A DNA stretch of 64,000 nucleotides from Halichondria panicea (taxonomy: Eukaryota > Porifera > Demospongiae > Suberitida > Halichondriidae). The stretch's first letter is position 1, and each line of letters starts with the position of its first letter. The notes under the pieces are model-generated. The model did not search any database and had not been told where the DNA came from. It worked only from the letters and a program-made list of their open reading frames with translations. Positions 18,232 to 23,992 of the stretch are shown in pieces. The stretch covers positions 4,552,990 to 4,616,989 of the forward strand of contig NC_087387.1 of NCBI RefSeq assembly GCF_963675165.1, given 5' to 3'. The position numbers and the translations under genes were made by a program.

Positions 18232-21200
18232 ATGAGATATCTTGCAAAAAGACTGTCCCTCAGAGTAACGCTCTTCATAATCATGCTTCAAACAAGATTC
18301 CGATGGGCAATACTATTTTTCAGCATGATGTTCTTAGTGATACTATCTGGAGACGTGGAACTAAATCCCGGCCCTCTAGGTAGGTTATTGCATTGATAAT
18401 TATACTCTTTTAATGTGCTGTGTACCAACATGTACAACCCTATGCATGCATGCATGCGCACATGCCCAGCAGAGTAGAGTGACTGTGTGTGTGGATGTGG
18501 TGTGTGTGTGTGTGTGTGTGTGTGTGTGTGTGTGTGTGTGTGTGTGTGTGTGTGTGTGTGTGTGTGTGTGTGTGTGTGTGTGTGTGTGTGTGTGTGTGTG
18601 TGTGTGTGTGTGTGTGTGTGTGTGTGTGTGTGTGTGTGTGTGTGTGTGTGTGTGTGTGTGTGTGTGTGTGTGTGTGTGTGTGTGTGTGTGTGTGTGTGTG
18701 TGTGTGTGTGTGTGTGTGTGTGTGTGTGTGTGTGTGTGTGTGTGTGTGTGTGTGTGTGTGTGTGTGTGTGTGTGTACGTGTGTGTTTGTGTGTGTGTGTG
18801 TACGTGTGTGTGTGTGTGTGTGTGTGTGTGTGTGTGTGTGTGTGTGTGTGTGTACGTGTGTGTTTGTGTGTGTGTGTACGTGTGTGTGTGTGTATGTGTG
18901 TGTGTATATGTGTGTGTGTGTCCGTGTGTGTGCATGTGTGTGCGTGCATGCATGTTAGACACTTTCATGGACTGCTTTAACTGCTGATAAAACAGTTAGT
19001 TGATAAAACAGCTAGTTGATGCTACCTATACTAGGTGATCCTCGAAAAATGATATAAACAGTGATTTGCCCCGATCTGATTATCATGGCTTTTTCAAGTC
19101 ACAATTATATATGCGATCATTTCCTATATAGACATGTTACCCTCAATTTCAGGCCACGAAAAAAAGAACAAATGGCCTGTCATACAATACATATACACTA
19201 CTTAATTACGCTAATGCGCACTGGGTGAGTGCTCTCCTGAGCATCTTAATATTTGAGGTGTTGCACTATATATACTAACAAATCTATAATTTATTGGGGA
19301 ATTTGGCAGGTGTACATGTGTGCATGCAACAGTCACATTGTCTGTTGCGCCAATGGCAGTGCAATCTCAGCATAATGACTGTGATGTGCACGCTGGTATA
19401 TATAATAATTATTATTCATTATGCAGTACGTGCATACGTAATTCATTGCAAACCACATGACACAAACGTATACAATCATTCTTACATTCACATGTAGTGT
19501 TTCCCTTGATTTTATTCATAATTCTCCCTCTATATTATTATAGTGAGAGTATCACTCACAGTGGAAAATGTGGCTCGCAAGCTGAAAGCTATTGAGTGTA
19601 ACAGCGAGCAGCTAAAGCTTCTTGGAGTCTGGTTAAACACACCCTCTTCTGAACGTACCACATTGCATCGCCTACTCACTTACTTCATTGAGATGCATCC
19701 ATTCGGCTCATGGAGGACTGTTATCTGGGCACTAGACGCCATTAAAGAACACTCTATAGCTGACAAGATAAGGAACTACGCTGAGAGAATTGAAGGTTAA
19801 TATAGTTAGTTCTATTGGCACAATTCCTTCTTGTAATTAATTATAGCAGGCAGTTTTTGCTTGTTGTCTATAGTATATATTAATTGTATATACAGCTATA
19901 ATCAGCAATTAACCTTTTTGCTATAGATTTTATAATGCATCCCTTATTATGCTGCTGTTACTCTCTTGAGCAGATGAGACACTGAACACTGAAGCTGTGG
20001 CCAATGTTGTGCTAAAGACAACGAAAGGCTGGTATGGTGCTTTTGCAGACAGCATGGGAATTCCCTGGACAATTCAGGAGAGGATTAAGAATGATTTCTC
20101 TACAGTTGATAAACAGAAAAGAGCTCTGATGAAGTATTGGGTGGAGACTTTGCATGATGCTGCATGGACTACACTAGCTGGTGTACTGTACCAAACGGAA
20201 GAAAATTCTGCCTTAAGTGATGCCTTGAAATACCTCAAAGAAGACCGAGGTATTTATTTATGCTTCTCAGTTCTAAATACACCTCCGTGTGCATGCATAT
20301 TATTGGCAGTGGCTTGTGAATTGTACACGTTATTGTATATGAGTTTCCACACACGTCAGGCATATGTGACCTTTATTGCTTAGGATTAACTGATAGAATT
20401 CATGAGGAACATGCACTTAGCTGATCATGCATGCTCTAACAAACATGAATTCCTTCTTTACAGAGGAAACACTAACAATTGTGAATCTACTGCATCTACT
20501 GGGAGATGTGGACGATCTTGATTGTGATAAATTTGCCTACTTCCTTGACATGCCATGGTCTAACCGAATTAGGCTCAGCAAAAAATGCAAACAGCAACCA
20601 TCACCCTATTGGCTAACAGCTTTGATGTCTGAATGGCTAATCAGTCACCCTGCACCAACGTGGAGGCTTGTTGCTAATGCTCTCTCTTGGATGGGCAGGA
20701 AAAACAGGAAACTTCATCAAGCCCTCAAAACTATTTATAAATCAGAGAAGTTTCTTCCTGGTAAGTGAGTCTAATTATTGGTCTATCTCACTTGTATGCC
20801 ATATTATATAGCAGCTGCTTGAAAACAGGCAAGAACTAGATGGCTAATACAGTGCATATAATATCATTTCTTTCCAATTTTAGTGCAAGTTTGGGGATTG
20901 TTTTTATAGTATTCACATAATTATTTAGCCTGCCGAATACTGTTTTATTTACTACAGACCCAGAGAGCAAGAGACTGTGCACAGTTCTCAATAAAGCTTG
21001 GAAAGAAGGTGGAAAACTTGAACAAATGATTGTACAACTTCACCTATCCGGAACTACACGCTCAGGCAAAACCTCTCTTATCCGACGATTAACTGGCAAA
21101 CATGCTCGCAAAGATGAACCAAGTACGGGTGTTGCTGATAAGCCTGTTCGAGTAGACATTTCTAAAACCTCGATGATAGTTGAAAATACAGACGATGCTG

Positions 21201-23992: not shown

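Follow-up and report, generated by a model that had tools for sequence, protein, structure and literature searches.

The window analyzed here, a 64,000-nucleotide stretch of the Halichondria panicea genome (C11:4552990-4616989, out of 131.5 Mb in 39 contigs), contains on its plus strand a gene predicted to encode a Roco-type (Roc-COR) GTPase with Death-type modules, the first exon of which appears to be a removable 2A cap: skipping at the 2A peptide would yield a cytosolic sensor, and failure to skip would direct the product to the secretory route. The probability of this reading is roughly 0.6. The anatomy of the predicted gene, the recurrence of such leaders in the genome, the splice-phase rule that they follow and the near-identical caps found in front of NACHT genes and a Roc-COR-like gene are read from the sequence; transcript joining, skipping, targeting and signalling at the window gene are inferred.

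The 2A leader and the gene model

A scan of the entire window yields a single match to D[V/I]ExNPGP, namely DVELNPGP at 18352-18375 on the plus strand; a second NPGP, at 12887, lies in a minus-strand frame rich in stops. The match carries the C-terminal core D(V/I)ExNPGP that defines 2A peptides, and the exact sequence SGDVELNPGP closes a hydrophobic leader, as the initial annotation had stated. The elements of this region are as follows.

18232..18379, plus strand: leader exon 1, from the ATG to a phase-1 donor (predicted from the open frame and the donor TAG/GTAGGT)
18304..18351, plus strand: hydrophobic stretch WAILFFSMMFLVILSG, signal-sequence-like and adjoining the 2A core (hydropathy peak 2.44, 15-residue mean)
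18352..18375, plus strand: 2A (StopGo) core DVELNPGP, where skipping is predicted to separate Gly 18370-18372 from Pro 18373-18375
18380..19543, plus strand: predicted intron 1, phase 1, containing a long (GT)n repeat

The stretch at 18304-18351 is the most hydrophobic part of the leader and is preceded by basic residues, an order that resembles a signal sequence. MMFLVILSG adjoins the core; the rules for 2A context are loose, and the hydropathy peak of 2.44 is suggestive. The 2A frame stops six codons past NPGP, beside the phase-1 donor. A pattern search returns 14 matches but no relatives from the genome contig collection and no matches from the viral contig collection. The (GT)n repeat within predicted intron 1 extends over several hundred bases (window positions about 18500-18930).

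When the seven predicted exons (the leader exon and the six listed below) are joined, the resulting model of 1,109 residues is stop-free, with GT/AG at all six junctions and a phase-1 start for exons 2-5. The sequence thus supports a canonical 2A leader whose predicted splice keeps both frame and phase with a Death3-Roc-COR-Death gene. The in-frame splice proposed in the initial annotation stands with respect to phase, frame and the stop-free model, the junction 18379/19544 itself being a prediction. The open frame of the first Death sequence of the gene has no start codon ahead of that sequence, so that an additional exon upstream is required.

The predicted Roc-COR cargo

The remaining exons of the model are predicted to encode three Death-type modules, the Roc-COR core and a terminal Death-type module.

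19544..19795, plus strand: exon 2, Death-type module 1 (assigned by likeness to the C4 paralog, first Death exon)
19974..20249, plus strand: exon 3, Death module 2 (E 0.0016 for Pfam Death when searched alone and 1.4e-4 within the full model, just below the cut-off both times)
20464..20760, plus strand: exon 4, Death-type module 3, the weakest case (by alignment with the other Death exons only)
20958..21381, plus strand: exon 5, first part of the Roc GTPase, with the P-loop GTTRSGKT at 21050-21073
21489..23094, plus strand: exon 6, remainder of Roc and COR-A, with DIGGQ at 21595-21609, TFKD at 21874-21885 and COR-A at 22129-22557
23666..23992, plus strand: exon 7, terminal Death-type module and stop (by likeness to the terminal Death of the C8 paralog)

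Among the three domains named in the initial annotation, COR is matched above the Pfam cut-off (COR-A, 42.9 bits, cut-off 35.3, residues 680-822), and the other two fall below it: Roc, with GTTRSGKT, DIGGQ and TFKD all present, reaches 23.4 bits (E 7.3e-5) against a cut-off of 27, and Death (PF00531) narrowly misses with 22.4 bits against 22.6, at residues 156-215, which correspond to exon 3. The Pfam search of the 1,109-residue model gives no kinase, ankyrin or LRR match. Exon 3 is the sole one of the four Death-type exons that matches Death when searched alone; exon 2 on its own has no match in Pfam, and exons 4 and 7 have no Death match. Over part of its length, exon 2 shares 42% identity with the first Death exon in the C4 paralog, itself matched by Pfam Death with E 5e-9. 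For exon 7, the likeness is to the Death at the end of the C8 paralog (phmmer 3.9e-6 among four sequences), which reaches a Pfam E-value of 2.9e-6. A profile of nine Death exons, three from the window and six from the two paralogs, matches the death domains of ankyrin, FADD and RIPK1 in the PDB (best E 8e-4), with non-Death proteins in a similar range (Jumonji, E 0.012).

Among the best 8000 candidates scored, at least 65 public proteins are listed as relatives of exon 6, itself included, among them P0002 (87% identity, on a 2.8-kb contig) and P0003-P0006 and P0008 (57-60%), so that this cargo exon is real and conserved. The full-length protein has no match in the public protein set at E 0.001. 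Of the two C4 paralogs (C4:5120968 and C4:5245164) the first was examined, and it and C8:4145720, the closest of those looked at, keep the Death-Death-Death-Roc-COR order.

2A leaders across the genome

The reading of the initial annotation changes in one respect, the window gene being no singular fusion; 2A leaders also precede NACHT genes and other Roc-COR-like genes, and, judging by sequence, the window gene is one case of a genome-wide class of 2A leader exons that stand before Death-type frames and NACHT or Roc-COR-like genes. DNA coding for D[V/I/M]ExNPGP occurs 116 times in the genome, compared with zero occurrences of the reversed pattern in the 131 Mb, and a chance motif is accordingly rejected. 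Coordinates are available for 107 of the 116 places, and many of the loci are array copies, hence not independent.

Within 20 kb downstream on the same strand, a listed NACHT domain is found for 15 of the 107 sites and a listed Roc-COR domain for 15 (window included), several 2A sites pointing to one domain. On the opposite strand, neither is found within this distance, and upstream on the same strand, NACHT is found for 10 sites and Roc-COR for 4, which are taken to be neighbouring array units. At distances of up to 5 kb, the asymmetry is 10 downstream to 0 upstream for NACHT and 4 to 2 for Roc-COR. The NACHT list comprises the 102 scored of 265 candidates, and the Roc-COR list combines places with Pfam COR-A and places resembling window exon 6, some of which belong to one gene. 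The membership of a 2A site and a domain in one gene was checked by sequence for L061, L062, L063, L084 and L085 only.

A Death-type frame lies within about 1.4 kb downstream, on the coding strand, in 28 of the 45 distinct 3-kb loci (27 of 44 without the window), compared with one of 45 upstream and none of 45 on the opposite strand. The Death profile was seeded with the window and paralog exons and retrained on its matches, so that the E-values are not independent and the direction control is the useful one. At L006 and L043, a single open frame runs through leader, 2A and Death-type sequence. The 17 loci without a Death-type frame include at least five that look retrotransposon-like (L005, L012, L014, L016 and L028) and six units of a C2 array.

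Two further genes connect the leaders with Roc-COR-like sequence. At L061 (C10:1211819), the open frame continues for 47 residues past NPGP with no Pfam match, and the 9.8-kb stretch contains Roc (E 5.9e-11), COR-A (E 3.5e-7, below the cut-off) and Death (E 3.5e-16). At L062 (C2), the 2A exon is accompanied by a 777-residue frame similar to window exon 6 (E 1.8e-18; Pfam Roc E 0.024). Pfam searches of suspected TRADD-N stretches (369 residues in L061, 223 in L003) give no match, and that of an L010 stretch finds no CARD.

Several loci are of separate interest. The L061 stretch (C10:1202500-1212300) is very large and gene-like, including Death-type frames and a second long frame of 681 residues. 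Four 2A sites at C10:4273791-4452565 are each followed by a pair of COR-A matches, three of the pairs in 1,269-residue frames and the fourth split over two frames, in what appears as an array of 2A plus double COR. In L004 (C6:3064858) and L054 (C16:2740084), the 2A cores lie inside long open frames (494 and 714 residues) with upstream stretches that appear hydrophobic by eye and no Death-type frame within 1.4 kb downstream, perhaps reflecting a different use of 2A.

Splice phase and retention of the motif

The first GT[A/G] within 11 nucleotides past NPGP is in phase 1 in 44 of 52 distinct contexts (window excluded), in phase 2 in four (L012, L014, L015 and L016, of the CxxC type) and in phase 0 in none, and is absent from four (L004, L005, L028 and L061); L054, counted among the 44, sits within a long open frame, where the GT might not act as a donor. 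The window donor, TAG/GTAGGT, is in phase 1 as well.

The motif also tends to be kept when the leader is searched for without it. For two leader families, with the 150 bases upstream of the core as the query and the motif left out, 57 of the 62 leader copies found retain the exact motif. In the first family, 19 of 22 copies have it adjoining, the others reading NHGP, NLEP and NPEP; two of these changed-core copies have leader stops or a frameshift. In the second, 38 of 40 copies are exact, and two read GNVEANPGP instead of GDVEANPGP. The latter copies are L070 (C14:3451330) and L071 (C14:1031430); in the excerpted text of PMC12846837, 2A variants with N at p12 have over 95% activity, p12 being this Asp by our reading of the numbering. 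The ratio of non-synonymous to synonymous polymorphism (pN/pS) ranges from 0 to 0.40 in the core and from 0.42 to 1.34 in the leader, values that are biased (rows chosen by motif, no gap alignment) and are not relied on.

Near-identical leaders before different cargos on C14

The same leader stands before both kinds of cargo in a C14 array. In L063 (C14:1088504), a leader exon, a short intron and a Death exon are followed, by predicted joining, by a 794-residue frame that matches window exon 6 (E 2e-18, query positions 29-505); Roc reaches 24.6 bits in Pfam against the cut-off of 27, and Death E 0.0017. The assignment of this frame to Roc-COR follows from its likeness to window exon 6. L084 and L085 have the same arrangement of leader and Death exon, followed, again by predicted joining, by a NACHT gene. 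Over the 284 bases up to the donor, L063 shares 255 of 266 and 262 of 275 positions with the two NACHT genes (95-96%); the corresponding figures are 226 of 270 and 235 of 269 for the Death exon and 49 of 87 and 64 of 103 for intron 1, with gaps left out and the exon limits set by us. At the DNA level, L063 and the NACHT genes match until the Death frame ends and not in the Roc-COR-like frame that follows. Near-identical leaders before NACHT and Roc-COR-like genes thus suggest that one cap heads two kinds of nucleoside triphosphatase (NTPase) switch.

A more far-reaching proposition, less likely than not, is that the leader serves as an interchangeable cap. In this reading, a phase-1 exon and its Death exon would have been passed between unrelated NACHT and Roc-COR sensors and gained more than once by Roco genes, giving whole sensor families a shared location switch at translation; the skip would be decided with the hydrophobic stretch still within the ribosome, before the signal recognition particle binds.

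Proposed mechanism

In the scheme proposed for the window gene, the ribosome would synthesize a 47-residue hydrophobic leader and stall at NPG/P. The leader would usually be released, and translation would go on to give a Death3-Roc-COR-Death protein that starts with Pro and stays in the cytosol; without skipping, the leader would be retained as a signal sequence and the whole product would enter the secretory route. With NPG at the peptidyl-transferase centre, residues 25-40 of the leader would still lie in the exit tunnel, so that skipping would be decided before the signal recognition particle sees the signal and the choice would be made per protein, at synthesis. The phase-1 cap exon fits phase-1 Death exons, so that NACHT and Roc-COR alike could serve as the switch core behind it. 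Like other Death-NTPase switches, the cytosolic product would most likely have its nucleotide state control oligomerisation of the Death modules.

The closest precedent is the 2A leader of a sea urchin NLR, for which excerpts of PMC4981915 report an estimated skipping of about 80% with a cytosolic cargo and, for a skipping-dead leader mutant, a cargo sent mainly to the Golgi. This experiment agrees with the leader and cytosol mechanism of the initial annotation. If the window leader behaves alike, it should yield mostly a cytosolic, Pro-initiated product together with some secretory product, and the efficiency of skipping may act as a location switch, as the initial annotation proposed; the same excerpts show dual targeting and describe no regulation of skipping efficiency.

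Evidence against the cap and alternative explanations

Several observations weigh against the assignment of the cap to the window gene. The donor of exon 1 ranks third among 219 possible phase-1 first exons within 3 kb upstream, two others having better donor scores, and intron 1, at about 1.2 kb, exceeds the 55-141 nucleotides that separate NPGP from Death at many array loci. The window leader shows only a weak likeness to the other leaders of the genome (best E 0.02), and a query with it returns no homologues from the public protein collection. Ahead of their first Death exons, C4:5120968 and C8:4145720 show no 2A motif over 3.9 and 4.7 kb, respectively, and none of the located motifs lies on C8 or, on C4, within 0.9 Mb; the cap is thus not a fixed part of this subfamily, so that the window cap is either a separate gain or was kept here and lost or replaced in the paralogs. 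At other loci, L073 has an open leader yet a changed core, and L083, conversely, retains the core although its leader has stops, so that core and leader are not always kept together, and L063 has no Pfam COR-A match and its Roc is below the cut-off.

The missing motif in the two paralogs, the 219 candidate first exons with two better donors and the long, repeat-filled intron all favor an explanation in which the 2A exon is part of another transcript, be it a leader exon in decay or a gene for a short peptide, with the Death-Roc-COR gene starting from a different first exon or promoter; the same may hold for the paralogs on C4 and C8. The C8 paralog has two in-frame ATGs just ahead of its first Death sequence (none in the C4 paralog), and a leader exon may be needless there. 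This explanation nevertheless appears unlikely for the window gene: the phase and frame of the 2A exon fit the gene, the window Death frame has no preceding start codon, and the leaders accompany same-strand Death-type frames, in L006 and L043 within one open frame.

It is similarly improbable that the 2A peptide mainly sets the N-terminus or the dose of the protein, through a Pro-initiated product (with a possible Pro/N-degron) or ribosome drop-off, membrane targeting of the unskipped form having no role. The product would indeed start with Pro, and the excerpt of PMC12846837 cites the proline N-end rule; in the available passages of PMC4981915, termination at 2A is among the outcomes listed and the hydrophobic residues near the core belong to 2A activity in urchin mutants. 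However, basic residues followed by a hydrophobic stretch give the leader the order of a signal sequence, and, in the same passages, the urchin counterpart entered the exocytic route once skipping was blocked.

That the 2A is a non-long-terminal-repeat (non-LTR) retrotransposon remnant that happens to lie upstream of the gene is very unlikely and was rejected: 2A is known in such elements (PMC11512398, in excerpt) and precedes CxxC-rich frames, labelled retrotransposon-like by eye, at L005, L012, L014, L016, L028 and perhaps L015, but the 2A frame continues into the cysteine-rich stretch at L012, L014, L016 and L028, whereas the window frame ends six codons past NPGP beside a phase-1 donor, as in the gene leaders, and the open reading frames of at least 130 residues near 18 kb of the window comprise only the gene exons and (GT)n frames, no reverse-transcriptase search having been made.

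Relation to known systems

Roco proteins combine Roc with COR, and DAPK1 has the layout Roc-COR-Death. The window gene resembles these in its putative Roc (below the Pfam cut-off) followed by COR-A and in its terminal Death-type module, and differs in having three N-terminal Death-type modules and a predicted 2A leader exon. The brown algal ROCO genes (PMC11378527) likewise belong to the Roco family, undergo exon shuffling and have been put forward as candidate immune receptors; they come from a different lineage, and the excerpted text mentions no 2A.

The leaders resemble those of the Strongylocentrotus purpuratus NLRs as described in the passages of Roulston et al. 2016 (PMC4981915): both are N-terminal and hydrophobic, end in D(V/I)ExNPGP, head Death-type immune switch proteins and are numerous in the genome. 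The urchin 2A leaders amount to 85 of 241 NLRs by one count and 14 of 87 NCBI entries by another (same passages). Like the urchin NLRs, the predicted window model carries its 2A at the very start of an immune-like protein of the Death type, and it departs from them in the NTPase core, which is Roc-COR with Death-type modules on both sides. The NACHT and LRR cargo of the urchin type is absent from the window gene, and NACHT follows the leader in other genes of this genome, where, in another difference from the urchin, near-identical leaders precede NACHT genes and a Roc-COR-like gene. The window gene is therefore rated as a new cargo, Roc-COR, for an urchin-type leader that is itself already known.

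The five CxxC loci (L005, L012, L014, L016 and L028) differ from this class in that they have no phase-1 donor within 11 nucleotides and no Death-type frame downstream; the retrotransposon 2A (PMC11512398, in excerpt) has the same core motif, and frames of such appearance occur in this genome. These loci probably represent the kind of 2A host that is already known.

Among the open-licence papers listed in the searches, none describes 2A on a Roc-COR protein, in agreement with the initial annotation, which knew of no described case for this cargo; none describes 2A in a sponge either, where the initial annotation mentions it on NLR genes. Rao 2025, by its title a systematic survey of eukaryotic and viral 2A, may well list such cases. 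The excerpt of PMC12846837 ties 2A on cellular genes to urchin NLRs and calls it rare, and that of PMC8195603 reports an expansion of Death and TRADD-N proteins in Amphimedon. With 116 matches, a Death-type frame behind 28 of the 45 loci examined and both cargos, N-terminal 2A would rank as a general device among invertebrate sensors of the Death type, and near-identical leaders with different cargos in one genome render the purpose of a removable signal on a cytosolic sensor testable. If sponges share 2A leaders, the transmembrane predictions in sponge NLRs (PMC12909245, in excerpt) would merit a recheck.

Other features of the window

Outside the gene, a protein kinase frame and, behind it, a Kelch frame (both by Pfam) lie at positions 961-2939 on the plus strand. 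On the minus strand, 41583-44636 and 47819-50890 hold frames of 1,018 and 1,024 residues, the first of which has no match in Pfam; the two are apparently tandem duplicates, closely alike across the first 400 residues.
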